The notes under the pieces: generated by a model | Database searches by the model: none | What the model saw: only the letters and a program-made list of their open reading frames with translations | What the model was told of the DNA's origin: nothing | NCBI RefSeq assembly: GCF_001719065.1 | Contig: NZ_LWAF01000004.1 | Location: forward strand, 1-64,000 | DNA: 64,000 bases | Source of the DNA: Fervidobacterium thailandense | GTDB taxonomy: Bacteria > Thermotogota > Thermotogae > Thermotogales > Fervidobacteriaceae | Direction: 5' to 3' | In this document: in pieces, positions 11,699 through 36,021 of the stretch | Numbering within the stretch: position 1 is the stretch's first letter | How the letters are laid out: every line of letters begins with the position of its first letter | Position numbers and translations under genes: made by a program

Positions 11699-13390
11699 AT
11701 GGAGCGGATACTCAAATTCGTGCTTGACTCTATCATCGAAGGTGTTATCATCGTTGACAAAGACGCACGAGTTGTGTACGTGAACAAAAATGCGTGTAAG
11801 CTACTCGGTCTAACGAGCGATATCATTGGTAAATACGTTGCAGATGTCGTTAAGAACACAAGACTCCACATCGTTGTGAAGACTGGACTACCTGAAATTG
11901 ACCAAGTCCAGCACACTGAAAATGCAGTCATCATCACCTCGCGCATCCCTATCCGAGACGAGCACGGTCAAATAATCGGGGCCGTTGCCGTTTTCCGTGA
12001 TATCACCAGTATCAGAAAACTTGCTGAAGAAATCACAAATCTGAAAGAGATTGAGGCCCAACTAAAAGCTATTATTGACTCCACAAACGACGCTATAAGT
12101 GTTGCCGACGAGAACGGAATCGTACGCCTTGTGAACAAGGCTTACACAAAAATCACGGGGTTCACACCCGAAGAAGTCATCGGTAAACCCGCCACCGTGG
12201 ATATAGCCGAAGGTGAGAGCATACACATGCTCATTTCGAAAACCCGTACACCCATCTACAACGCAAGATTAAAAGTGGGACCCGCGAAGAAGGAAGTTAT
12301 TGTCAACGCCACACCTCTCTTTGTAAAGGGACAGTTCAAAGGCAGTGTTGCCGTGGTCCACGATGTTTCAGAAATACTGCAGTTGACAAACGAACTTGAG
12401 GAAGTCAAAAGGCTCATCAGACACATGAAAGCGCAGTACACCTTCGACGATATAATCGGTGACAGTCGACTCATCCAAATAGCTAAGGAGCAAGCCAAAA
12501 AGGTGGCACAGACCCCCGCCACGGTCTTACTTCGAGGGGAGAGCGGCACCGGGAAGGAACTCTTCGCGCACGCAATACACAACTCCAGCCAACGCAAGAA
12601 GGGTCCTTTTGTGAGCGTCAACTGCGCCGCGATTCCGGAATCTATCCTCGAAGCTGAACTCTTTGGTTACGAAGAAGGTGCGTTCACCGGAGCACTGAGA
12701 GGTGGTAAAAAGGGCCTTGTTGAAGAAGCTGACGGAGGCACACTCTTCCTCGATGAGATAGGTAAACTCCCACTCTCACTCCAGTCGAAGCTTCTGCGAT
12801 TCATCGAAACAAAGGAATTCGTCCCCGTCGGAGGCCGAAGCGTAAAAAAAGTTGATGTTCGAATCATCGCTGCAACGAACATGGACCTCGAAAAAATGGT
12901 CAGAAACGGTGAATTTCTCCCGGATCTTTACTTCAGACTCAACGTTTTTCCCATTTACCTACCACCGCTTAAAGAACGCCGAGAGGATATCCCAAAAATT
13001 GCGATGCACATAGTAAAAAAGCTCAACCAACAGTACGGTCGCATGGTGGAAGGCATCAGTCCACAAGTGCTACACTACATAACTACACGTGACTGGCCGG
13101 GAAACGTGAGAGAACTTGAGAATTTCCTTGGACGAGTGATGATAAACATGGGACCGGAAGAAAGGTACATCGAACTAAAACACCTTCCTGAACGTGATTC
13201 TTACCACGAACCAAAAAGCACGGAGGTCAAGGTCGGGCCGTTGAAGGATCTTGTCGAAGAGTTTGAAAAGCAGGTCATACAAGAGACTCTCAAAAAGGCC
13301 AACGGTGACAAATTTAAAGCCGCAGAAATCTTGGATATCAGCGTGCGAACACTGTATTACAAACTGGAACGGTACGGAATCGAAAAATAA
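11699..13390 (+). CDS. PAS-domain sigma-54-dependent transcriptional activator (Fis family)
   Basis: This 563-residue regulator has two PAS sensor domains (about 1-110 and 120-235), an AAA+ activator domain and a C-terminal Fis-type helix-turn-helix (FKAAEILDISVRTLYYKLERYG). The AAA+ part has Walker A GESGTGKE, the sigma-54 contact loop GAFTGA (in EEGAFTGALRGG) intact, Walker B GGTLFLDEIGKL and the arginine-finger region. It should therefore drive sigma-54 promoters by ATP hydrolysis in response to a ligand or redox signal sensed by PAS. No receiver domain is present. Targets are unknown; the neighbouring MFS gene is one candidate. Confidence 0.9.
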   Translation: MERILKFVLDSIIEGVIIVDKDARVVYVNKNACKLLGLTSDIIGKYVADVVKNTRLHIVVKTGLPEIDQVQHTENAVIITSRIPIRDEHGQIIGAVAVFRDITSIRKLAEEITNLKEIEAQLKAIIDSTNDAISVADENGIVRLVNKAYTKITGFTPEEVIGKPATVDIAEGESIHMLISKTRTPIYNARLKVGPAKKEVIVNATPLFVKGQFKGSVAVVHDVSEILQLTNELEEVKRLIRHMKAQYTFDDIIGDSRLIQIAKEQAKKVAQTPATVLLRGESGTGKELFAHAIHNSSQRKKGPFVSVNCAAIPESILEAELFGYEEGAFTGALRGGKKGLVEEADGGTLFLDEIGKLPLSLQSKLLRFIETKEFVPVGGRSVKKVDVRIIAATNMDLEKMVRNGEFLPDLYFRLNVFPIYLPPLKERREDIPKIAMHIVKKLNQQYGRMVEGISPQVLHYITTRDWPGNVRELENFLGRVMINMGPEERYIELKHLPERDSYHEPKSTEVKVGPLKDLVEEFEKQVIQETLKKANGDKFKAAEILDISVRTLYYKLERYGIEK

Positions 13391-23728: not shown

Positions 23729-24370
23729 TTAGCCCTCGAGCTTTTTGTGGCAGAACCACCAATCGTAACATTCGTATTCCTTGAGTCTCTTTTCAGCCGT
23801 TGCACAGTCGGTTGCCGGTGGAATGATGACCCTGTCACCGAGCAGTTCGTTGTTTGGCCAGTTGGCAGGAATTGCAACTTTGTTCTGATCACTAAGTTGC
23901 AAACCTTTAACCATTCTGAGTATTTCGTCCATGTTCCTTCCAAGTTCCTGTGGATAGTAGAGCGAAGCCCTCAAGATACCGTTCGGATCAATGATGAAGA
24001 CCGCCCTAACCGTGTTCGTACCCTTACCCTCGTGAATCATACCGAAGAGTTCAGCGATCTGTCCCCTGTCGTCCGCAATGATCGGGAATTGGATCTCAAT
24101 CCCAAGTTTCTCCTTGATCCACTCGACCCACTTGATGTGGGAAAACACCTGGTCGATGCTCAAACCGATCAACTCGGTGTTCAGTTTCTTGAACTCCTCG
24201 TACCTCTTCTGGAACGCAACGAACTCCGTCGTACAAACCGGTGTGAAGTCCGCCGGGTGGCTGAAAAGTACGACCCACTTACCAGCGTAGTCTTTTGGGA
24301 AGTTAATAACACCATGCGTCGTTTTCGCTGTGAACTCGGGAACCTTGTCACCAATCAGCGGGAATCCCAT
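23729..24370 (-). CDS. Peroxiredoxin (archaeal-type, long Prx6-like)
   Basis: This 213-residue enzyme reduces hydrogen peroxide and alkyl hydroperoxides through a peroxidatic cysteine (Cys46 in [13 protein letters not shown]). The C-terminal extension carries two further cysteines near 201 and 207 (YECYDWWFC), as in the decameric thioredoxin peroxidases of thermophilic archaea, where they act as resolving residues. ATG follows a GGAGG site. It is a single-gene unit with its own terminator and shares its upstream region with the divergent respiratory operon, so both may respond to oxygen or redox state. Confidence 0.93.
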
Positions 24371-24702: not shown

Positions 24703-24720
24703 GTAGACTTTTTCTGTCTA
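24703..24720 (+). repeat. 18-bp direct repeat, copy 1, with internal dyad
   Basis: GTAGACTTTTTCTGTCTA occurs exactly twice in this gap. Within it TAGAC and GTCTA form an inverted repeat around a 7-nt T-rich centre, the size of a dimeric regulator site or a small RNA hairpin. The copies are 62 bp apart start to start, about six helical turns. Confidence 0.75.
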
Positions 24721-24736
24721 TTTTCGTATTTTAACC

Positions 24737-24766
24737 TTGGCATATTTTGTGTTATCCTTGTAAAGT
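24737..24766 (+). promoter_or_regulatory. Second promoter of the Mrp/Mbx operon
   Basis: TTGGCA (24737-24742), an 18-nt spacer and TAAAGT (24761-24766) resemble a sigma-A promoter close to the first gene. Its -10 box overlaps the start of repeat copy 2, so a protein bound there would block it. Confidence 0.4.
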
Positions 24767-24782
24767 AGACTTTTTCTGTCTA
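24765..24782 (+). repeat. 18-bp direct repeat, copy 2, with internal dyad
   Basis: This is an exact second copy of the 24703 repeat. It ends 10 nt before the ribosome site of the first antiporter gene and overlaps the -10 box of the nearer promoter, a classic repressor position. Confidence 0.75.
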
Positions 24783-24806: not shown

Positions 24807-25286
24807 GTGAATTTTTCGGTCTTTCTTGTGAGCTTTTTCACATGGATGGTACTTACTTGGTCACTCGACCCTCAGGAGCTCGCGATAGGACTTTTGGTCT
24901 CCTTCGTCGTTTCGGTTGTCTTTAAAAGGTATTACAAGATAACACTTGATGCGAAATTTCCAGTGAGGTTTTTGAGGTTCGTGTTCGTTTACGTCCCCGT
25001 TTTTATGTGGGAGATGATCAAAGCGAATCTCGATGTGGGTTCCAGGGTGATCATGCCCGATATGGGATTGAAACCGGGGTTTGTGAAGGTAAGAACGGAC
25101 TTAAAAAGTGAAGTGGGGAAACTCGTCCTGGCAAATTCCATTACGTTAACTCCCGGCACGATAACACTCGATATCGATGGGCAAGAACTTCACGTACACT
25201 GGATAGAAGTCTCCGGTACAGATGAGTCATCAAAGAAAGCCATTTACGGTAGATTTGAAAAGGTTCTTAAGGGGGTGTTTGAATGA
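24807..25286 (+). CDS. mbxA: MnhE-type antiporter subunit (MbxA)
   Basis: This is the first gene of the Mrp/Mbx operon. The 159-residue membrane protein has the MnhE/MrpE pattern: two to three N-terminal helices, then the cytosolic part SRVIMPDMGLKPGFVKVRTDLKS and the family sequence LVLANSITLTPGTITLDI. It is a structural part of the Na+/H+ antiporter module. GTG at 24807 was chosen because AAGGAGGG ends 6 nt before it; an in-frame extension upstream would run through the operator repeat. It overlaps the next gene by ATGA. Confidence 0.9.
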   Translation: MNFSVFLVSFFTWMVLTWSLDPQELAIGLLVSFVVSVVFKRYYKITLDAKFPVRFLRFVFVYVPVFMWEMIKANLDVGSRVIMPDMGLKPGFVKVRTDLKSEVGKLVLANSITLTPGTITLDIDGQELHVHWIEVSGTDESSKKAIYGRFEKVLKGVFE

Positions 25287-25570
25287 AGAGTTTGAGCGGA
25301 ATTTCACTCGTTGATTGGCTCGTATACGGACTAACGGGATTTGGAATTTTCTTCTCGTTGATCCGCTTCATGGTTGGTCCCACATCCTTCGACAGGCTCG
25401 CATCAGTTGACATGATGAACGTCATGATAGTGGGATTGATTTCGATTTTTGCCCTCCTTACCGAAAACAACATGTACATGGATATCGCAATTGTATACGC
25501 TCTCCTTTCCTTCGTTGAAACCATCGTTTTTTCCAGGTATTTGGAGAGAAAGTGTGGTGAAGAGAAATGA
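25283..25570 (+). CDS. mbxB: MnhF-type antiporter subunit (MbxB)
   Basis: This 95-residue protein has three transmembrane helices and the MrpF/MnhF family pattern RFMVGPTSFDRLASVDMMNVM. It is one of the small subunits of the antiporter module that join the large MnhD-type subunits. Both ends overlap neighbours by 4 nt, which supports strict co-translation. Confidence 0.9.
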   Translation: MKSLSGISLVDWLVYGLTGFGIFFSLIRFMVGPTSFDRLASVDMMNVMIVGLISIFALLTENNMYMDIAIVYALLSFVETIVFSRYLERKCGEEK

Positions 25571-25914
25571 GCCAACTTATTCACCAAGCGATATCTTATT
25601 CGTTAATGGGGATTGGGGCGTTTTTCTACTTCCTGGCCGGGCTTGGATTGGTGAGAATGCCAGATTTGTACACCAGGTTGCAGGCTTCCACCAAAGCAAC
25701 CACACTTGGAACGTTCTCACTTGTGCTTGGTGTTGGGATTCTAAACCCCGCATTTCTGGGAAAATCACTCCTCGTCATCTTATTCGTTGCGTTAACAAAC
25801 CCCGTAGCTTCTTCAGTCATGATGCGTGCAGCCTACAAGTGTAAGCTTCCAACGTGCAAGGAAACTTGCGTCGACGAAATATCAGCGACTGAAAACGGTG
25901 GTGAGAGCATATGA
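25567..25914 (+). CDS. mbxC: MnhG-type antiporter subunit (MbxC)
   Basis: This 115-residue protein of the MrpG/MnhG family has three helices, with the hallmark GLVRMPDLYTRLQASTKATTLG. The C-terminal tail is longer than usual and includes three cysteines (CKLPTCKETC), which is unusual for this subunit and may bind a metal or form a disulfide. It is embedded in the operon by 4-nt overlaps. Confidence 0.9.
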   Translation: MSQLIHQAISYSLMGIGAFFYFLAGLGLVRMPDLYTRLQASTKATTLGTFSLVLGVGILNPAFLGKSLLVILFVALTNPVASSVMMRAAYKCKLPTCKETCVDEISATENGGESI

Positions 25915-26189
25915 TTTGGACGTTGAGCGACCCGATGAACCTTTTTGCTCTATTGTTCGGTGGGTTAATGATTGTGTTTGCAATTTTTGCCGTTGAGGCC
26001 AGGAAATTGGTAGATTCGGTAATCGCGCTCTCCGCAGTGAGTTTGCTGAGCGTTCTTTTCTTCATCGTTTTGAAAGCTCCAGATGTTGCAATTACGGAAG
26101 CGGCAGTAGGTTCTGGTTTAGTAAGTGCCGTTCTAATATTCGCGTTGCTGAAGCTGGAAAGTTCGGAAAAAGGTGGTGATAAACAATGA
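25911..26189 (+). CDS. mbxD: DUF4040 / MbhD-type subunit (MbxD)
   Basis: This 92-residue three-helix protein has the DUF4040 hallmark KAPDVAITEAAVGSGL seen in MbhD/MbxD and in the C-terminal part of MrpA. It is part of the antiporter module that connects to the ion channel. It overlaps both neighbours by 4 nt. Confidence 0.9.
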   Translation: MIWTLSDPMNLFALLFGGLMIVFAIFAVEARKLVDSVIALSAVSLLSVLFFIVLKAPDVAITEAAVGSGLVSAVLIFALLKLESSEKGGDKQ

Positions 26190-26914
26190 GAAGGGTTTGG
26201 GCACTTCTTGTAGCTTTTTCTGTGTTACTGTTCTTCTCCTACCGTATCATGCCCACGCTCCCGGAATTTGGGAACGTTGAGATGTTCAGGAGATCGACCT
26301 TCGACATCATTCATAAATCAACAAAAGACCAGTACAGCGCAAGAGAATTTAAGAAATCTAAGAACTTGGAGGAGGGAAGCGCGAACGTCGTAACTTCAAT
26401 TGTTGTGAACTACAGATCATTTGACACACTCGGAGAAGTAACCGTGCTCTTTATCTCGGCCTTTGGAGCCGGATTGGTGGTCAGTTCGTTGCGCAGGAAT
26501 CGTCGAATCACCTTCGATGAGCACAACATATTGAAAACGGCATCTGGAGTTGTACTTCCATTCATTTTCCTGTTTGGCTCTTACGTGTTTGTTCACGGTC
26601 ATTTGTCACCCGGTGGTGGTTTCGCTGGTGGGACCATCCTGGCTTTGGGAGTCCTACTTCTAATGCTTGCACGTAACGATTTCCAGGTCACAGGTGCAAA
26701 GTACGTCGAACAAATTTCCGGGGCCGGTTACGTTGTGGTCGGTCTTGCCGGTTTGGCCATATCCGGTGCGTTTCTTGCCAACTTCCTTCCCACCGGAACA
26801 CTCGGTGAGCTCTTCAGCGCTGGTGTTGTACCTTTCGTGTACACGTTGATCGGTTTCAAAGTCGGTGCTGAGCTCTCCGGTTTGATATCGGATCTCAGAG
26901 AGGGGGAAGTGTGA
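26186..26914 (+). CDS. mbxF: MnhB-type subunit with N-terminal MbhE-like part (MbxF)
   Basis: This 242-residue protein is a fusion. Its first part (to about residue 95) resembles MbhE: one helix, a soluble stretch, then SIVVNYRSFDTLGEVTVLFISA. The second half is MnhB/MbhF, with the conserved GHLSPGGGFAGGTILA. In group 4 hydrogenase and Mrp systems these are often two genes; the fused form matches the mbxF layout. It belongs to the ion-transporting membrane arm. Confidence 0.88.
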   Translation: MRRVWALLVAFSVLLFFSYRIMPTLPEFGNVEMFRRSTFDIIHKSTKDQYSAREFKKSKNLEEGSANVVTSIVVNYRSFDTLGEVTVLFISAFGAGLVVSSLRRNRRITFDEHNILKTASGVVLPFIFLFGSYVFVHGHLSPGGGFAGGTILALGVLLLMLARNDFQVTGAKYVEQISGAGYVVVGLAGLAISGAFLANFLPTGTLGELFSAGVVPFVYTLIGFKVGAELSGLISDLREGEV

Positions 26915-27342
26915 TGCTGTACGATCTGTCCGAAATGTTCAGAGAAGCTCTCTCTGTCCCTTACTATTATCTTCCGCTTTTTTTGGTAGCGATCGGCATT
27001 TACGGTATCGTATCGCAGAAAAACCTCTTCAAGCAGCTGGTTTCACTTGGATTGATCGACACCGGTGTGAACATATTCATCATTTCCTTGGGATACATTC
27101 AGGGAATGGAAGCTCCAATTTATTCGGCCGTTACTCCCGTGGCAAAATTTGTCGACCCGTTGCCACAGGCACTCGTGCTTACGGCTATCGTAATAGGTGT
27201 TGGTATTCTCGGATTGGGAGCGGCTCTTCTCATAAAGGTACATGAAAGGTACGGTACACTTGAGCTTGATGAACTGAGGATCGCTAAAGAACGCCAAAGC
27301 CAGCAAGAAATTACGGACGATGAAGGGGATGTGGGAGCATGA
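26914..27342 (+). CDS. mbxG: MnhC-type antiporter subunit (MbxG)
   Basis: This 142-residue protein of the MnhC/NuoK family has three helices, with SLGLIDTGVNIFIISLG and a typical DPLPQALVLTAIVIGVGILGLG. It is the NuoK counterpart in the membrane arm. Start is taken as ATG 26914 on a TGATG overlap, seven nt after GGGGG; GTG one codon earlier is possible. Confidence 0.9.
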   Translation: MLYDLSEMFREALSVPYYYLPLFLVAIGIYGIVSQKNLFKQLVSLGLIDTGVNIFIISLGYIQGMEAPIYSAVTPVAKFVDPLPQALVLTAIVIGVGILGLGAALLIKVHERYGTLELDELRIAKERQSQQEITDDEGDVGA

Positions 27343-28727
27343 TCGCTTTGCTGATCGCAATTCCTCTGGCTTTTGCTTTCGCAACGATACCCTTAAAGAA
27401 ATTAGCACGCTATATTCTTCCTCTTGTCGTGTTAGCTAACCTCGCGATTCTCTTCGCTTTGAAGCCGCATGTCGGCAAAATAATCGAACTTGGGAACTGG
27501 CCCGCTGTTTATGGGATCACTTTGGTTTTCGATGAGATAGCATTCTACTTTTTGGCTTTCGTGAACGCGATATTCTTGGTCATCTCGCTTGCCACGTGGG
27601 ATGATCGCTTCAGCATACCGCTACTCGTTTTGAACGCGGCGGTGAACGGTTTGATTCTAACGGGGGACTTTTTCAACTCGTTCGTGTTCTTGGAGATAAT
27701 CGCGATTACCTCATACATCATTTCAACTGACAAGGAGAACGCACTTGGAAGCTTTAAGTATCTAATCTTTGGTGGTGTTGCAAGCATCTTCTATCTTATC
27801 GGAGCGGTATTCATGTACATTCAGGGTGGAACATTGAACATGGGTTATTCTTCGTACATCGTTGGTATGTCAAGACCGGATCTGATGAAAACCGCATTAA
27901 TTTTGTTCGCCATCACGTTGCTCGTGGAACTGAAAGTGTTACCGTTTGGACTCTGGGCACCGGATGTGTACGGGAACGGTTCGCCGTTAACTCCGGTTGT
28001 CCTTGGAAACGTGGTCAGCGTCGCGATGGTCTATCTCTTTTCACGTTTGTCGTTAACCTTCGTCGATGAACCTTTGCCCATGGTCTTTTACTACGTCGCA
28101 CTCGCTTCGATCCTGCTATCGCAATTGGGAGCCTTGTATCAAAAGAACTTGGGTCGAACGTTGGCATTCGCATCGATGGCAGGTACGAGCACCGTCGTTG
28201 CCGCACTTTTGACACGCCAGGAATCAGTTGTCTCAGCAGCCCTGTTCTACCTTTTTACGGATGTAATTGCCAAGTTCGTGCTTTTCACCACCTATGGGAA
28301 TGTGGGAATAATCAACTTTAAGAATGCAAAAACAACTGGTATTGCGTTCACACTTTCATCGCTTTCGCTCATCGGTGTACCCATACTTGCCGGATTCTGG
28401 GGAAAGTACTATCTACTCAAAGCACTCTTTGAGCAGGAAAACTACGTGTTACCGATTGTCGTACTTGTCTCGACGCTCATAGAGTTAGCTTACATTATCA
28501 AATGGAATCTGGAGCAATGGTTCACGAAGAAAGAAACCTCTGAGGGCGAGATTGAGAACACCGATTTACCGTTTGCTCCGAAGCTCTTCGTTCTTTTGTT
28601 CGCTCTGATACTACTGGTGATCGGTCTGTTCCCACAGTTAATACTCGAGAAAACGAACCTATTGGCAGAGAAGCTTTTCGATTTCCAAAGCTACATGGAT
28701 TTGTTCTTTGGGAAAGGGGGCATGTGA
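27339..28727 (+). CDS. mbxH: MnhD/NuoM-type antiporter subunit (MbxH)
   Basis: This 462-residue proton- or sodium-antiporter subunit has about 13-14 helices. Charged residues typical of ion-path helices are visible: FVFLEIIAITSYI with Glu, LLVELKVLPFGLWAPDVYG with Lys, and the broken-helix region ALFYLFTDVIAKF. It is the first of two MnhD-like proteins in the operon. Start overlaps the previous gene by ATGA and its stop is directly followed by the next ATG. Confidence 0.92.
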   Translation: MIALLIAIPLAFAFATIPLKKLARYILPLVVLANLAILFALKPHVGKIIELGNWPAVYGITLVFDEIAFYFLAFVNAIFLVISLATWDDRFSIPLLVLNAAVNGLILTGDFFNSFVFLEIIAITSYIISTDKENALGSFKYLIFGGVASIFYLIGAVFMYIQGGTLNMGYSSYIVGMSRPDLMKTALILFAITLLVELKVLPFGLWAPDVYGNGSPLTPVVLGNVVSVAMVYLFSRLSLTFVDEPLPMVFYYVALASILLSQLGALYQKNLGRTLAFASMAGTSTVVAALLTRQESVVSAALFYLFTDVIAKFVLFTTYGNVGIINFKNAKTTGIAFTLSSLSLIGVPILAGFWGKYYLLKALFEQENYVLPIVVLVSTLIELAYIIKWNLEQWFTKKETSEGEIENTDLPFAPKLFVLLFALILLVIGLFPQLILEKTNLLAEKLFDFQSYMDLFFGKGGM

Positions 28728-30536
28728 ATGCAAAATGTACTGCTCGTCGCGATAACTGGATCGGCTATCGGCTATTTTCTGTCCCTTTTTTACAGACGCC
28801 TCGGACCGGTTATACTGCTCTTTATAAGCTTGTACGCGTTTATCACACTGTGGGGAGTTCCTTCGAACACCGCGGAAAGCTTCCTTGGATATGATGTGCT
28901 ATACCTAACCGCACTTGGAAAATATTTCGCACTGGTCTCACTGATCGTTTTCATCGCGTACGCGATCTTTAACATCGTCTGGATTGAAACACTGAAAACC
29001 CCGCACGCGTTCAACGCCCTGTCGATACTTACGCTCGCTGGAACACTCGGAGTTTTCTTCACCACAAATCTTCTCACACTGTACATATTCTGGGAGCTCA
29101 CCGTCTTCGCAAGTCTTTTCATCGTTCCCATGAGTAAACCTGAAGCCAAGCGCGCAGCGGTGTGGTACGTCACGATAACGGCAGTCGGTTCATTCGCGTT
29201 TCTTTTCGCAACGTTCTTTCTTTACTCGAAATTCTCCACGTTCGATTTAATACAAATCGCACGCGAGTTCGCCCAACTACCAAAATCTAACGTTTGGCTC
29301 GTTGTTTGGCTGATGCTGACCGCCGGTATAGCGAAAAGTGGTGTGTTTCCACTGCATGTGTGGCTTAGAAACGTTCATGGCAAGGCTCCTGACACGTTCA
29401 GTGCGGTTCTGTCCGGCCAGCTTGTCAAGATGGGTTCTTACCTGATAGCACTCCTTTTGGCCATTTTCCCGGTTTCAACCCTGTTTTCGCATTTTTACGG
29501 TGGGGTGAACATACTTTCGTATATATTGATCTGGCTCGGCAACGTATCGATTCTGGTTGGAACTTTGATGGCCATAAAACAGAACGATATGAAGATGCTA
29601 ATAGCGTTCTCCACGGTGGCCAACAGCGGTTATATCCTTATAGGATTAGCGTTGCTCGATCAGGTGGGATTTGCGGGAGGGTTGTTCCACGTTTTCAACC
29701 ACGCAATAGCTGCCGCGATGATATTCCTCTCGTTCGCAGCCGTTGTTTACAGGACTGGAACGACGAAAATTGATGAACTCGGGGGTCTCATCCACCGCAT
29801 GCCAATCACGTTCATCACGTATCTGGTCGGAATAATCTCGTTGGCCGGAATTCCACCAACAAGTGGGTTCATCTCGAAGTGGATGATCTTCCAATCGCTC
29901 GTTTCACGTGGAATGTTCGTTACGGAAATCTTTGTTTTCGTCGGTAGCATTGGTTCGTTCCTCTACGTTTTCAGACCCCTGGCTGGTGTTTTCTTGGGGC
30001 AACTTAAGAGCAAACACAAAGATGTGAGAGAAGTTCCCATAATTATGCAGATTCCAATGATACTCCTGGTGCTCATCACCGTATTTTTCGGTATTTTCCC
30101 AGGTCAAGTGCTTGAGCTAATCACTGACGTCCAAAAGGAACTAGGTATTGACGCGTTCCAGTACGAGGGTACAAAGCTAATAACCTCCATGGGCTACTGG
30201 GATACGTGGATCGTTTTTGTTATGTTCGCAGTTGGCTTCCTCATCGCGGCTGTTCTGTACTTAATAACACCGAAGGGAAGGAAAATACCCCTGGAGGACC
30301 AGTACACCTCCGGTGAATTCTTGCACAACTTCGATCTCTACCATTATGCTTCCAGGTTTTATGCATTCTTAGAACGAGAGTACGAAGGACATCCTTCACT
30401 TGAGAAGTTGTACGCTTCCTTGGTCAACGTACTCAAGTCGCTGGGAAAGGGTATCGATTACCTTGTGAGTCGTACGGCTTCCGCGTACGTTTTCTGGCTG
30501 GGTGTAATACTCTTACTCCTCTGGAAGGGGTGGTAA
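28728..30536 (+). CDS. mbxH': Second, longer MnhD/NuoL-type antiporter subunit (MbxH')
   Basis: This 602-residue antiporter-like subunit is longer than the preceding one because of extra C-terminal helices and a linking segment (DQYTSGEFLHNFDLYHYASRF), as in the second H subunit of mbx/mbs clusters. Conserved ion-path residues occur in YIFWELTVFASLF (Glu) and GIAKSGVFPLHVWLRNVHG (Lys). The presence of two H-type subunits is a hallmark that separates Mbx from Mbh hydrogenases. Confidence 0.92.
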   Translation: MQNVLLVAITGSAIGYFLSLFYRRLGPVILLFISLYAFITLWGVPSNTAESFLGYDVLYLTALGKYFALVSLIVFIAYAIFNIVWIETLKTPHAFNALSILTLAGTLGVFFTTNLLTLYIFWELTVFASLFIVPMSKPEAKRAAVWYVTITAVGSFAFLFATFFLYSKFSTFDLIQIAREFAQLPKSNVWLVVWLMLTAGIAKSGVFPLHVWLRNVHGKAPDTFSAVLSGQLVKMGSYLIALLLAIFPVSTLFSHFYGGVNILSYILIWLGNVSILVGTLMAIKQNDMKMLIAFSTVANSGYILIGLALLDQVGFAGGLFHVFNHAIAAAMIFLSFAAVVYRTGTTKIDELGGLIHRMPITFITYLVGIISLAGIPPTSGFISKWMIFQSLVSRGMFVTEIFVFVGSIGSFLYVFRPLAGVFLGQLKSKHKDVREVPIIMQIPMILLVLITVFFGIFPGQVLELITDVQKELGIDAFQYEGTKLITSMGYWDTWIVFVMFAVGFLIAAVLYLITPKGRKIPLEDQYTSGEFLHNFDLYHYASRFYAFLEREYEGHPSLEKLYASLVNVLKSLGKGIDYLVSRTASAYVFWLGVILLLLWKGW

Positions 30537-30539
30537 TGG

Positions 30540-31421
30540 ATGGCCGTCGCAGCACGAGTAGCCGGTGTTCTGTTGACAGCGTTCTTTTTCGGTCTGACGT
30601 TCGAAGGCATAGGCAGAAAGGTCACCGCACGTATTCAGAGACGTTACGGACCACCTTGGTATCAAAATTTCATCGATGTGCTTAAGACTCTTACGAAACA
30701 CGGCTGGACGCACGGTTGGATATTCGATTTTGGTGTGGTTATGGCACTTGGGGGAGTTATTGCAACCTTAGCCTTCGTCCCACTCGGAAACTTCGTGGCT
30801 TTTCCAGGACTGGATAACTTCTTCGTCATCGTTTACTTGTTCACCGTTGGAGCCCTCGGAATGGCCATGGGGATGGTCGGAACGGGCAATCCCTGGGCAT
30901 CGATCGGTGTAGCCCGCGCTCTTACGTTGATGCTCGGTTACGAGGTACCGTATTTGATAGTGATAACCTCGCTCTTGTACTACTTCAGGACTTCAAACAT
31001 ATCGACCATCGTGGAAATCCAGTCCGTCAACGGTTGGAACTTATTCCATTTTCCGATAGGTGCCTTGGTCGCCTTTATATCCTTACAAGGTATGCTCGGA
31101 AAGGAACCGTTCGAAGCACCGATCGCTCCTGCGGAAATCGCGTCCGGTCCGATGGTGGAGTTATCGGCAAAGTACATGGGACTCCTCATGCTGATGAATA
31201 CCTTTATGGAGTTCGTTGAGATATCGCTTTTCGTTGACTTCTTCCTCGGGGGAGGAAATTATTTTGAGTTCTTGCTTAAGTACCTTATCGTTTGGCTTCT
31301 TGCCGTCATGATATCCGCCGTCTTACCACGTTTCAGAATCGAACAAGCGGTGTTCTTCTATTGGACGGTGCCACTTTTGCTTGCTTTCATTCAGGTATTT
31401 CTCATCGTTGCTGTAATGTGA
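30540..31421 (+). CDS. mbxM: NuoH-type membrane subunit (MbxM)
   Basis: This 293-residue membrane protein of the complex I subunit 1/NuoH family has about eight helices. It couples the peripheral redox arm to the membrane arm. The N-terminal region GRKVTARIQRRYGPPWYQN and the acidic loop KEPFEAPIAPAEIASGP match the family and line the entry to the quinone-type cavity in complex I, here probably without quinone. A 3-nt gap separates it from mbxH'. Confidence 0.92.
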   Translation: MAVAARVAGVLLTAFFFGLTFEGIGRKVTARIQRRYGPPWYQNFIDVLKTLTKHGWTHGWIFDFGVVMALGGVIATLAFVPLGNFVAFPGLDNFFVIVYLFTVGALGMAMGMVGTGNPWASIGVARALTLMLGYEVPYLIVITSLLYYFRTSNISTIVEIQSVNGWNLFHFPIGALVAFISLQGMLGKEPFEAPIAPAEIASGPMVELSAKYMGLLMLMNTFMEFVEISLFVDFFLGGGNYFEFLLKYLIVWLLAVMISAVLPRFRIEQAVFFYWTVPLLLAFIQVFLIVAVM

Positions 31422-31435
31422 GGGAGGGATCTACG

Positions 31436-31996
31436 GTGTCCAATCGTGGAAACGTGAAGATAGATGAAAGGTCTATTTGGGAAAAGATAGCGGATCAGTT
31501 GCGTAGTAGATCCATGTGGATGTTGCATTACTGTACCGGGTGCGGTGCTGTGGAACTACCACCGTCGATGACCTCACGGTTTGACCTCGAGCGTCTTGGT
31601 ATCGGCCCGATGGCCACACCACGTCAAGCGGATATATTCCTCATCACCGGCTACTTGAGTGTCAAGACCCTCAGAAGGGTGATTTACACCTACGAGAAGA
31701 TGCCGGATCCAAAGTACGTCATCGGTTTTGGTTCGTGTACGATAAATGGGGGAATTTACTACGATTCGTACGCAACGATAAACAGGCTCGATTATTACAT
31801 CCCCGTGGATCTGTACATCGCAGGATGTATGCCGAGACCGGAAGCCATCTTTGAAGCGTTCACAAAATTGATGGAAATGATAAGAAAAGGAGAGGCAAAC
31901 GGCTGGAAGCGCTACAAGGAAAACTACGAATGGTACAAGCAGAACCAACTGCGGAGTTTGGGAGAGGTGATCGTCCGTGATGAGTTCCACGAATAA
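31436..31996 (+). CDS. mbxJ: NuoB-type [4Fe-4S] subunit (MbxJ)
   Basis: This 186-residue small subunit carries the proximal [4Fe-4S] cluster. Cysteines are at 33 and 36 (HYCTGCGAVE), 101 (GFGSCTING) and 131 (IAGCMPRPE). The CxxC spacing is that of group 4 hydrogenases and Mbx, not the adjacent CC of complex I. GTG at 31436 follows GAGGGAGGG; an in-frame extension upstream lies inside mbxM and was discarded. It overlaps the next gene. Confidence 0.92.
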   Translation: MSNRGNVKIDERSIWEKIADQLRSRSMWMLHYCTGCGAVELPPSMTSRFDLERLGIGPMATPRQADIFLITGYLSVKTLRRVIYTYEKMPDPKYVIGFGSCTINGGIYYDSYATINRLDYYIPVDLYIAGCMPRPEAIFEAFTKLMEMIRKGEANGWKRYKENYEWYKQNQLRSLGEVIVRDEFHE

Positions 31997-32537
31997 TATC
32001 AGCTTGGAAGAAATTTTCTCGTCTCTTGGCCGACTTTTCGAAGGAGTGAGTATCGAAAAAATTGATCAAAGACAATACAAGATAATTACACAACCCGAGA
32101 AGACGATACCCGTTCTTGAATTTCTCAAAGAGAAGGGTTACTCGCACCTCTCGATACTGACATGCGTTGACTGGATCGAGGAGAAGAAATTCGAGCTTGT
32201 TTACATCCTCTTCAACTGGGGGAACGGTGTAACGTTACTTGTTTCAACTTACGTGGACAGGGACAATCCAGTCTTCTACACCGTTAAACACATCTGGCCC
32301 ACGGCTGAGTATTACGAAAGGGACGTTCACGAGTTCTTCGGGGTCAAGTTCGAAGGAAATGAGAACTGCGAAAAGCCACTGATTCTCGAACTTTGGAACG
32401 ACTTGCCTCCACTAAGAAAAGATTTCGATCCGCTCGAGTACTCGAAAAAACACTATCCAGACCGTGAGTACGAAAAGGATGCGATTCACGAAGCACGCAT
32501 CATCCGCGGTGATGTGAGAGGTGAGATCGATGGGTGA
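31977..32537 (+). CDS. mbxK: NuoC-type subunit (MbxK)
   Basis: This 186-residue protein of the complex I 30-kDa family has the signature ISTYVDRDNPVFYTVK-like stretch (VSTYVDRDNP), WPTAEYYERDVHEFFGVKFEG and LRKDF. It joins the peripheral arm to the large subunit. GTG 31977 or ATG 31980 could start it. It overlaps mbxJ by 20 nt and ends inside mbxL by 8 nt. Confidence 0.9.
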   Translation: MMSSTNNISLEEIFSSLGRLFEGVSIEKIDQRQYKIITQPEKTIPVLEFLKEKGYSHLSILTCVDWIEEKKFELVYILFNWGNGVTLLVSTYVDRDNPVFYTVKHIWPTAEYYERDVHEFFGVKFEGNENCEKPLILELWNDLPPLRKDFDPLEYSKKHYPDREYEKDAIHEARIIRGDVRGEIDG

Positions 32538-33633
32538 GGTAAAACTCTTCTTCGGACCTAACCACCCGGGGATGCATGGAAATTTCAGCGTACACATGTA
32601 CGTCGAGGGTGACATCGTTGTCAAAGCAAGACCGATGCCAGGATTTTTACACCGCGGATTCGAAAAACTAATGGAAAGAAGACTTTGGTACCAAAACATA
32701 GCTCTAATTCCGCGTATCTGTGTTCCGGAACCTGATATCAACGAAGCATGTTACGCCATGGCCATAGAAAAGATAGCGAAAGTGGAGGTACCGGAACGAG
32801 CACAATGGATTAGGATGATCGTTCTGGAACTTGCACGCATCGCGAACCACCTTTGGTCGTTCGGTGGCATCGGTGGTCCAACGGGTATGTACACAAGCAT
32901 GTACTGGGCAGTAGCCGATAGAGACAAGGTGCTGGATATCTTCGAGGAACTCAGTGGTGCGAGGATATACCACATGTACATCGTGCCTGGGGGTGTGCGG
33001 AAGGATTTACCACCGAAACTTGAGGACAAAATATACCACCTTCTGAACTATCTCGAAGCTAAGATGCCCGAGTACGAAACGTTCATCCTCAAAAACAGGA
33101 TACTCCACACCAGGCTCAAGGGAATTGCAAAAATCGATACGGAGACCTGTTTGAAGATAGGCGTCACAGGTATCGGCCTGCGTGCCACCGGTGTACCGTA
33201 TGATATCAGGAAAGTTGATCCTTACCTGTTCTACGATAAAGTTGAATTCGAAGTACCAACCGCAACGGAAGGAGATGCCTACGCACGCATCAGTTTGAAA
33301 CCCAAAGAGATAATCCAGAGCATTCGCATAATCCGTCAGTGCCTTGAGAAGATGCCTTCTGGTCCGGTGAACGTCAGGATAGGTGAAGGTAACGGGCTCA
33401 GGATACGCGTACCAAAAGGCATGGCTTACGTACACGTTGAATCAACAAGAGGTGAGTACGGATACCTCGTAGTTTCCGATGGTGGTGAGAAACCGTACAG
33501 GGTAGCGGTAAGAGGAGCATCGTACCCACAGGGACTGTACGGCGTGGAACACCTACTACCCGGAACGAGGATAGATGATGTGCCCATCTGGCTTGATTCG
33601 ATGGGTGTGTGCGCACCGGAAATAGATAGGTGA
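32530..33633 (+). CDS. mbxL: NuoD/hydrogenase large subunit-like protein without full [NiFe] site (MbxL)
   Basis: This 367-residue protein of the NuoD/hydrogenase large-subunit family would hold the catalytic pocket. Where [NiFe] enzymes have RxCGxC it has PRICVPEPDINEACY, keeping one cysteine (64) and a further Cys74. Where they end in DPCxxC it has LDSMGVCAPEIDR with only Cys361. Full [NiFe] coordination is therefore not possible, as in archaeal Mbx (now Mbs, sulfane-sulfur reductase). ATG at 32530 follows AGAGGTG by 6 nt. The electron acceptor here is inferred, not shown. Confidence 0.9.
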   Translation: MGEVKLFFGPNHPGMHGNFSVHMYVEGDIVVKARPMPGFLHRGFEKLMERRLWYQNIALIPRICVPEPDINEACYAMAIEKIAKVEVPERAQWIRMIVLELARIANHLWSFGGIGGPTGMYTSMYWAVADRDKVLDIFEELSGARIYHMYIVPGGVRKDLPPKLEDKIYHLLNYLEAKMPEYETFILKNRILHTRLKGIAKIDTETCLKIGVTGIGLRATGVPYDIRKVDPYLFYDKVEFEVPTATEGDAYARISLKPKEIIQSIRIIRQCLEKMPSGPVNVRIGEGNGLRIRVPKGMAYVHVESTRGEYGYLVVSDGGEKPYRVAVRGASYPQGLYGVEHLLPGTRIDDVPIWLDSMGVCAPEIDR

Positions 33634-33658
33634 CGGGTGATTGGGGAGGCGATAATGA

Positions 33659-35506
33659 ATGCCAGAGAAGAGCTTTTTTGCACCACTGGTTGCTTGGAAA
33701 AATTTGTTCGAAAAGCCGGTGACGATACGTGTGCCTTGGGAAAAACGCGAAGCATCACCGCGCTACAGGGGATTTCACGTGAACGACTGGAACAAATGCA
33801 TAGGATGTGGAACGTGTGCCAAAATTTGTCCAACGGACGCAATCGAAATGGTTGAAGTTCCCGATATGAAGCAAGAATACGGGATGAAACCACAAAGGCC
33901 GGTGATAGACTACGGAAGGTGTAGTTTTTGTGCGATGTGCGTAGATATTTGTACAACCGGTTCACTAAATATGACACGTGAGTACATCTTCGTTTCACCG
34001 AATCCTGAAGACTTCAGGTTCGCACCAACCGAGAAGGGATTCTTAAAGAAAGAGCCATCGGAGATAAAGCTCGGCTGGGTTCGTGATGAAAACAGCGATC
34101 TGCTGGATCTTGATAGAGTGTGGCCGGAAATGTTACCAGCCCAGGAGAGAGTAACTTCTTTCGTAGAATTCGTGAAAGCATATAGCAAAGAACAGGCCAT
34201 CGCGGAGGCAGCCAGGTGTGTGGAGTGTGGTATTTGTACTGATAGATGTCCGCAGCACATGAGAATACCCGAGTACATCAAGGCCATCTGGCGCGATGAC
34301 CTACAGGATGCGCTTAAATGGTTGCTGAAAGGATTGGAAAACGAAAACTACGCCGGTGCGAACCCGCTATCCAGCGTGTGTGGTCGTGTCTGTACGCACA
34401 GGTGTGAGGAAGTGTGCGCTATATCACACAGGGGAGAACCGATTGCTATAAGGTGGCTGAAGCGGTACATTGTCGACAACGTCCCCGCAGAAAAGTGGCA
34501 CGAAATAGTTGGCTTTGAACGAACACCAAAGGGGAAGAAAGTTGCCATCGTTGGAAGTGGTCCTGCGGGTCTTTCTGCCGCGTACTTCTTAGCCACCATG
34601 GGCTATGAAGTCGATATCTACGAATCCATGAACCGTCCGGGTGGTGTGATGCGTTACGGAATTCCAAGGTATAGGCTGCCCGACGAGGCTCTCGATAAAG
34701 ATATTGCGTTCATCGAATCCCTGGGAGTACGTATCTACACCGGAATAACCGTTGGAAAAGATATACCTTTCGAAAAGCTCCGTGAAAAATACGACGCGAT
34801 CTTCCTCTCCACCGGCCTCACCCTGGGCCGGTCTACGAAAATACCCGGCTCCGATCACCCGGACGTCGTCCAAGCATTACCACTGCTGAGGGAAATACGC
34901 GACTATCTCCGTGGTGATGGTCCGGAACCGAAGATAGCCAAACGTGTTGTCGTTATCGGTGGTGGAAACGTTGCGATGGACATTGCCCGGAGCCTTGCAC
35001 GGTTGCAAAAGATAAAGTACGGCGAGGTCAACGTCACGGTTACGTGTCTTGAGCGAACGTACGACGAAATGCCGGCTGATGAGGAAGAAATAGAGGAGGC
35101 CATCGAAGAAGGTGTGAAGATCCATCCAGGCTGGGGTCCGAAAGAGGTAATATTCTACCCGGATAAGGACGCGATAAAAGGCTTAAAGTGCGTAAAGTGC
35201 AAAGAAGTGTTCGATGAGAACGGACGTTTCAACCCGAAGTTCGACGAATCAGAGTTTTGCTTCTACGATGGTGATATGATCGTTGAGGCTATAGGACAAG
35301 CACCGGATTACTCATACTTGCCAGAGGAGTGGCGTTCGAAACTGCAGTTCGTTGGTTACAGGATACTCACCAACAACCTTAGGCAAACGCAGATTCCCTG
35401 GCTTTTTGCCGGTGGCGACATCGTCAACGGACCGGATATAATCCACGGTATTGCGGACGGTTACTGGGCAGCTCGCGGTATCGATCAGTACCTGAGAAGT
35501 CAGTAA
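33659..35506 (+). CDS. NuoI-type ferredoxin fused to GltD/NfnB-like NAD(P)H oxidoreductase
   Basis: This 615-residue protein has three parts. Residues 1-110 are a NuoI-like 2x[4Fe-4S] domain (Cys47-50-53-57 and Cys88-91-94-98). Residues about 180-260 match the N-terminal Fe-S region of GltD/NfnB (Cys187-190-193-197, and Cys241-245-249-253). The rest is the FAD domain (GSGPAGLSAAYF, near 299) and NAD(P) domain (VIGGGNVAMDIARS, near 434). It is the last gene of the Mbx operon and should feed electrons between NAD(P)H, ferredoxin and the membrane complex. ATG at 33659 follows GGGGAGG by 9 nt; a +1-frame ATG just upstream was rejected. Confidence 0.9.
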   Translation: MPEKSFFAPLVAWKNLFEKPVTIRVPWEKREASPRYRGFHVNDWNKCIGCGTCAKICPTDAIEMVEVPDMKQEYGMKPQRPVIDYGRCSFCAMCVDICTTGSLNMTREYIFVSPNPEDFRFAPTEKGFLKKEPSEIKLGWVRDENSDLLDLDRVWPEMLPAQERVTSFVEFVKAYSKEQAIAEAARCVECGICTDRCPQHMRIPEYIKAIWRDDLQDALKWLLKGLENENYAGANPLSSVCGRVCTHRCEEVCAISHRGEPIAIRWLKRYIVDNVPAEKWHEIVGFERTPKGKKVAIVGSGPAGLSAAYFLATMGYEVDIYESMNRPGGVMRYGIPRYRLPDEALDKDIAFIESLGVRIYTGITVGKDIPFEKLREKYDAIFLSTGLTLGRSTKIPGSDHPDVVQALPLLREIRDYLRGDGPEPKIAKRVVVIGGGNVAMDIARSLARLQKIKYGEVNVTVTCLERTYDEMPADEEEIEEAIEEGVKIHPGWGPKEVIFYPDKDAIKGLKCVKCKEVFDENGRFNPKFDESEFCFYDGDMIVEAIGQAPDYSYLPEEWRSKLQFVGYRILTNNLRQTQIPWLFAGGDIVNGPDIIHGIADGYWAARGIDQYLRSQ

Positions 35507-35535: not shown

Positions 35536-36021
35536 GTGAGAGACGTCTTAAAACTGGCCGAGAACTTTGAAATTGAGGGATACAGGTTTTACCGCCAAAA
35601 GATGAAAGAGGTCAAAAGCAAAAGAGTAGCTGAGGTTTTTGAATACCTTGCGGAAATGGAAAAGGAACATACGGAATTTATACGAAGGTTGATAAACGAC
35701 ATCGAAGGTGGAAGGGAGATAAGCTTCCAAATTTCTGAAAAGCCGGAAATCTTCACTAAGAGGTACCAGACTCAGGCTTTGGAATCCACCCCCGTTGAGG
35801 ATGATCTCCAGGACCTTGCGGTTTTGCGCATGGCTTACCTAATCGAGAAAGATTTCATGGAATTTTACACTCGAAGTGCGGAGCGAGTTGAGGACAACGA
35901 TTTGAAGAAGATACTCCTACTTTTGAGGGACTGGGAAGCGGGGCACAAGGAAATCATCGAGCGGGAGATCAAAACGATACTGGAGAGGAACAATTTGGAT
36001 CTCGGATTCTATCCGTTTTGA
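35536..36021 (+). CDS. Ferritin-like (rubrerythrin-fold) diiron protein
   Basis: This 161-residue four-helix protein carries the diiron ligands of the ferritin-like/rubrerythrin erythrin domain: E in NFEIEGYRFY, ExxH in EMEKEHTEF, E in IEKDFMEFY, and ExxH in WEAGHKEI. It lacks the rubredoxin-like CxxC tail of rubrerythrin. It follows the Mbx operon by 29 nt, from a GTG after a run of Gs, and may protect it from oxidants or act in iron handling. Confidence 0.85.
   Translation: MRDVLKLAENFEIEGYRFYRQKMKEVKSKRVAEVFEYLAEMEKEHTEFIRRLINDIEGGREISFQISEKPEIFTKRYQTQALESTPVEDDLQDLAVLRMAYLIEKDFMEFYTRSAERVEDNDLKKILLLLRDWEAGHKEIIEREIKTILERNNLDLGFYPF

Follow-up and report, generated by a model that had tools for sequence, protein, structure and literature searches.

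This locus raises the question of what kind of membrane complex is encoded by a run of antiporter-like and complex I-like genes that ends in a gene with a flavin domain, and of which carrier delivers electrons to it. The preliminary description of this DNA had proposed thirteen co-directional, nearly all overlapping genes of Mbx/Mbs identity in the archaeal type of order, with the last gene providing an entry point for NAD(P)H. The window, that is, the whole stretch of 64,000 nucleotides analysed, comes from a Thermotogota genome of 2.04 Mb (G000), and its ORF list and Pfam assignments confirm the gene arrangement: thirteen ORFs at 24807-35506 on the forward strand run in the same direction and overlap or abut. 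At each of the first six junctions, stop and start codons overlap by 4 bp, mbxH and mbxH' abut, mbxH' and mbxM are spaced by 3 bp, mbxJ/mbxK and mbxK/mbxL overlap, and the largest spacing, 25 bp, separates mbxL from the last gene, mbxN. The order, A-B-C-D-E-G-H-H'-M-J-K-L-N, is that of MBS. Rfam and tRNA scans of the window gave no hits.

Pfam assigned the first eight genes to MNHE, MrpF, PhaG, MbhD, MbhE plus MnhB, Oxidored_q2 (MnhC) and, twice, Proton_antipo_M, and the last five to NADHdh, Oxidored_q6, Complex1_30kDa, Complex1_49kDa and a combination of a Fer4 dicluster with Fer4_20 and Pyr_redox_2. The operon opens with mbxA (MnhE; 24807-25286; PF01899, 1.8e-41), which has a GTG start downstream of AAAGGAGGG, and continues with mbxB (MnhF; 25283-25570; PF04066), mbxC (MnhG; 25567-25914; PF03334), mbxD (MbhD; 25911-26189; PF13244), mbxE (26186-26914; PF20501 and PF04039), which encodes MbhE and MnhB as a single protein as in MbsE, and mbxG (MnhC; 26911-27342; PF00420). 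The two antiporter-like proteins, MbxH of 462 residues (27339-28727) and MbxH' of 602 residues with a long C-terminal part (28728-30536), correspond to MbsH and MbsH' in the PDB sequence search. They are followed by the NuoH-type membrane anchor MbxM (30540-31421; PF00146), MbxJ of the NuoB type (31436-31996), MbxK of the NuoC type (31977-32537; PF00329), MbxL of the NuoD type (32521-33633) and the fused MbxN (33659-35506). The start of MbxJ is most likely the GTG at 31436, which follows GGGAGGG, rather than the TTG (31292) with which the mechanical ORF begins. Both the antiporter subunits and the NuoH/B/C/D-type module named in the preliminary description are therefore present, its DUF4040 gene being Pfam MbhD and its 'MnhB fusion' being MbhE joined to MnhB.

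By its sequence, 24807-35506 is a member of the known MBS/MBX operon type. The top match among solved structures was the Pyrococcus furiosus MBS (6u8y) for six subunits, E (6u8y_E, 7.3e-46), H (6u8y_H, 2.6e-41), H' (6u8y_X, 1.8e-68), M (6u8y_M, 1e-56), J (6u8y_J, 1.5e-73) and L (6u8y_L, 2.3e-111), and residues 1-114 of MbxN matched 6u8y_N. The two systems have in common thirteen subunits, gene order, membrane modules, the cysteine site of MbxJ and the two remaining cysteines of MbxL; they differ in that MbsN is unfused, whereas here MbxN bears a flavin head, in an extra histidine in an MbxL loop and in the lack of the central lysine of MbxH. A tree of 100 MbxL-type sequences places the MbxL of the window inside an 87-row MBS/MBX clade with support of 100/99, rather than with the [NiFe] hydrogenases, the other placement considered at the outset. 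Complex I NuoD from Mbx-holding proteobacterial genomes and the Mbh-type [NiFe] large subunits of other Thermotogota (CGIC and CYCC) both branch apart from that clade. MbxL is without the [NiFe] cysteine pairs, having a single cysteine at each [NiFe] CxxC site, and so falls outside the Mbh-type group 4 [NiFe] enzymes.

The sulfane site is preserved. The MbxJ cysteines (CTGCG...C...C, in the motifs CTGCG, GSC and AGC) are those of MbsJ C25, C28, C93 and C123, as seen both in the gap-free alignment to 6u8y_J and in the motif survey, and the proximal-cluster site consists of a short CxxC loop with two further cysteines, as is characteristic of MBS/MBX members. With these motifs, the proximal cluster of MbsJ has one iron that is not bound by a cysteine (PMC7684303). 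The motif survey found the sulfane-site cysteines retained from Thermotogota to Proteobacteria, and the equivalents of MbsL C85 and C385 retained in the MbxL of nearly all relatives. A divergent Mbx with a fused N, on a contig fragment (L053 in G004), is without the two MbxL cysteines, and in five Tenericutes/Firmicutes loci (L086 and L088-L091) MbxJ reads CTGCC for CTGCG, placing an extra cysteine beside the sulfane site. At the position of H38 in the complex I quinone site, MbxL of the window and of most Thermotogota carries a histidine (GMHG), with Y87 absent; because this histidine is without counterpart in the P. furiosus MBS, the substrate may differ from that of the archaeal enzyme.

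The charged residues along the axis of the antiporter-like subunits bear on the number of pumps rather than on family placement. MbxH lacks the central lysine and histidine; the position of the lysine (MbsH K250) is occupied by valine in the window and by residues other than lysine in almost all sequences of the anaerobe branch, and the lysine is present in 26 of 90 sequences, being retained in Proteobacteria, Hydrothermota, a DHVE2 archaeon and P. furiosus. MbxH', on the other hand, retains E, K, K, H and K, the matching positions being almost invariant (E in 89/89, K or R in 89/89, H in 88/89 and K in 89/89). A shifted MbxH lysine at position 221 may compensate in some Thermotogota, although not in Mesoaciditogaceae or Halanaerobium. 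A link between the missing MbxH lysine and a lower ion yield, as would suit a weaker electron donor, is speculation.

The fusion of the electron-input protein to an NfnB/GltD-type domain, also foreseen in the preliminary description, was borne out. Residues ~1-120 form MbxN and residues ~150-615 the flavin head, and the protein matches the NF010590/PRK13984 profile over residues 1-614 with 1143.9 bits, against a curated cut-off of 946; it is a full-length relative of this family, whose name, 'putative oxidoreductase', gives no function. A structural model of the fusion (mean pLDDT 82.5, with the N-terminus and linker below 50, so that the relative position of MbxN and the flavin domain is not defined) matches NfnL (5jca_L) with a TM score of 0.86 normalised to the target, in line with a common fold and common cofactor domains. 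A plasmid search returned weaker matches only, those of highest coverage being of the AegA/YgfT type.

The hallmarks of the Nfn bifurcating transhydrogenase, namely an NfnA partner, the proximal-cluster glutamate and the YRR motif, are all absent from the head and the operon. No NfnA is encoded in the operon. Glu117 of NfnB is replaced by Lys268, which is invariant in 33 diverse fusions and was also retained in the wider set of relatives in the motif survey. The YRR motif, which in Nfn holds the NADP phosphate (PMC7596348), reads LER, with the glutamate directly after a strand in the model. The NfnB of the same genome, which lies in a normal nfnAB pair, has both the glutamate and YRR and serves as an internal control. 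The invariant Cys241 (VCGRVC) was considered as a substitute ligand for the lost glutamate and rejected, because that NfnB has the same cysteine as well as the glutamate. A lysine at the proximal cluster is also found in StnC of Sporomusa ovata, whose flavin is non-bifurcating (PMC10482914); StnC likewise has an NfnB-like domain that passes electrons to another module, but it uses NADPH and feeds a HydBC-like module rather than an ion pump. We therefore predict that the flavin head is non-bifurcating, given the lysine in place of the glutamate, and NAD(H)-specific, given LER in place of YRR, the choice of cofactor resting on this one motif. Of the NAD(P)H entry proposed earlier, the flavin head stands and the 'NAD(P)H' probably narrows to NAD(H).

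Among the surveyed fusions, YRR-type heads were seen only in Mesoaciditogaceae and in the WOR-3/Hydrothermota group, and the YRR/LER difference within the family is, as read from these motifs, a natural cofactor switch. In six loci of Mesoaciditogaceae with a YRR-type head (L051, L096, L098, L101, L106 and L144), a second NfnB-like gene lies ~900-1150 bp downstream of the fusion. In Mesoaciditoga (L094:11097-14110), MbxN is apparently shortened to 157 residues, most of the head being deleted, and a separate NfnB-like gene lies just downstream, possibly a natural loss of the head.

The occurrence of Mbx-like gene sets in Thermotogales, also stated at the outset, holds across Thermotogota genomes. 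The fused N occurs in 69 of 103 (65 full-length and four cut by contig ends) and MbxL, at an identity of ~50% or more, in 70; both are absent from f2, a family of the same order, and from some single species. Of 28 further Thermotogota operons, 27 have the same thirteen genes in the same order, the 28th (L053) being the contig fragment mentioned above, a conservation of order far beyond chance, and the fused N adjoins L in all 28. Since the fusion and MbxL are widespread and the order is identical in the fetched operons, the operon is old in the phylum.

The fused version is found in at least six phyla besides Thermotogota, sulfur-oxidising Proteobacteria included. A scan of the genome collection with the MbxL alignment gave 557 relatives, of which the best 80, a sample biased towards the most similar, nearly all share the gene set with the fused N beside L, as far as their contigs permit. 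The hosts among these 80 include Clostridia, Halanaerobium, Tenericutes, spirochaetes, Caldisericum and Hydrothermota, as well as sulfur-oxidising Gamma- and Betaproteobacteria (Thiodiazotropha, Lamellibrachia symbionts and Parasulfuritortus). In the DHVE2 archaeon, N is unfused. In the MbxL tree, Thermotogota are nested among the bacterial fused forms, with P. furiosus outside. This tree lends no support to the view, cited in PMC2246101, that Thermotogales acquired mbx from Thermococcales; its archaeal sampling, with a single Thermococcales sequence within the 87-row clade, is too thin for such a transfer to be rejected.

Taken as a whole, we consider, with a probability of about 0.55, that the operon product is a 13-subunit membrane complex of the MBS type with a built-in NADH-oxidising flavin head, and we infer the electron path, the substrate, the direction and the coupling ion on this basis. 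The FAD of the fused head would accept a hydride from NADH and release single electrons, which would pass through the Lys-ligated proximal and then the distal [4Fe-4S] cluster to the two MbxN clusters, which would serve as a tethered ferredoxin. From there, the electrons would reach MbxJ and its three-Cys [4Fe-4S] cluster, the proposed site at which polysulfide or another sulfane is cleaved; this cleavage would power ion pumping, with MbxM, MbxH' and the Mrp module as the route. Against an NADH-driven model stands the small driving force, ~60 mV, available between NADH and polysulfide.

Both MbxN clusters are retained in the fusion, so ferredoxin, the other carrier named in the preliminary description, could still feed in, and the energetics bear on a second reading, which we regard as unlikely: reduced ferredoxin would enter at MbxN and reduce NAD+ at the head with Rnf-like pumping, the sulfane site being secondary. 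The nucleotide site on the head and the intact MbxN clusters would suit such a ferredoxin:NAD+ oxidoreductase, and the step from ferredoxin to NAD+ yields more energy than that from NADH to polysulfide. The retention of the sulfane-site cysteines from Thermotogota to Proteobacteria argues against it, however, as does RnfC, which was found in 100 of the 103 Thermotogota genomes whether or not they have Mbx; the related idea that Rnf and Mbx are mutual alternatives was rejected on the same near-universal presence of RnfC. Such an activity would, moreover, bypass the J/L/M chamber, at which coupling is placed in the superfamily of this complex (PMC7684303). Improbable, too, is confurcation, in which ferredoxin and NADH would be co-oxidised and both electron streams sent to the sulfane site as a flexible redox valve. 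A single protein does hold both possible entry points, and such cells produce both carriers (PMC9431562), but the lysine at the FAD-adjacent cluster is as in the non-bifurcating homologue and the operon is without an NfnA partner. Very unlikely is a ferredoxin-only MBX, the model drawn for Thermotoga maritima in PMC9431562, with a flavin domain that is regulatory or meant for another partner, because the FAD and nucleotide motifs and the cluster-region cysteines of the head are retained across phyla, which favours a working redox head.

Directly after the operon, 35536-36021 (+) encodes a rubrerythrin/ferritin-like protein (PF02915, 8.1e-16), a candidate fourteenth subunit or partner that lies beyond the coordinates given in the preliminary description. 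Among the other 28 Thermotogota operons, 13 (L033-L042, L046, L048 and L058) have a homologue immediately behind N, and a related gene follows N in nearly all proteobacterial loci with a contig reaching that far. The spirochaete branch has eight loci with a longer N, of 736-759 residues; of the four C-terminal extensions tested, two match Pfam Rubrerythrin, that of L109 above the curated cut-off and that of L116 below it. The model of this MbxN-rubrerythrin fusion, with a mean pLDDT of 60.9, is too low for use, its helical C-terminus being suggestive. The gene at 35536-36021 very likely belongs to the set of the operon, and its product is likely to be a physical partner, because the gene stands next to mbxN in one lineage and is joined to it in another. 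That it protects the open cluster from oxygen or peroxide is a guess.

Upstream of mbxA, two identical 17-bp copies of the inverted repeat TAGACTTTTTCTGTCTA lie at 24704-24720 and 24766-24782, 62 bp apart, and these are the only copies genome-wide at up to two mismatches. Both boxes recur at matching positions in the sister genome, and in G070, a more remote relative, the pair is formed by a variant present in two identical copies. The simplest reading of the pair is a paired operator of a regulator. A wider regulon was considered and rejected, as looser matches in the genome were no commoner than in the reversed control. The intergenic region with the pair is common to the operon and a divergent peroxiredoxin gene at 23729-24370 (-); elsewhere in the window, 11699-13390 encodes a regulator that combines PAS, sigma-54 activator and Fis-type HTH domains.

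The Thermotoga Mbx operon type, common in Thermotogota, and the function-less fusion family PRK13984 are already known. Reviews of MBX from the Adams group reportedly discuss Thermotogales. In the open-access literature searched, we found no description of an NADH-headed, non-bifurcating variant, of the ferritin-like partner or of the wide spread of the fusion. The MBX of T. maritima, from the same phylum, is likewise a 13-subunit, sulfur-induced complex, with mbxA up 4.36-fold with sulfur; it differs in the published model, which has ferredoxin as donor and, in the available part of the paper, mentions no flavin head (PMC9431562). A complex of this kind, a putative Mrp-Mbx, is reported for a sulfur oxidiser, the Riftia symbiont, with function and direction listed as unknown (PMC11636981); the operons compared here are those of Lamellibrachia and Escarpia symbionts (L103, L104, L108 and L112).

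The published scheme of sulfur reduction in Thermotoga (PMC9431562) has ferredoxin as the sole donor to MBX; an NADH dehydrogenase in the head, if that is what it is, would alter the redox and ATP balance of those Thermotogota that produce hydrogen. Vent worms and clams, too, have sulfur-oxidising symbionts with this gene set. A tentative and rather doubtful extension is that the fused complex serves bacteria in general as an NAD(H)-sulfane respiratory enzyme: in anaerobic fermenters, which have lost the MbxH lysine, it would carry electrons from NADH to polysulfide with one intact pump subunit, and in sulfur-oxidising Proteobacteria, which keep the lysine, it would run in reverse, ion-motive force and sulfane-sulfur electrons reducing NAD+ directly for CO2 fixation, while the rubrerythrin-like subunit would guard or service the open sulfane cluster. 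Complexes of this set also form a natural series of relatives of complex I, with differing heads for electron input and differing numbers of intact pump subunits.
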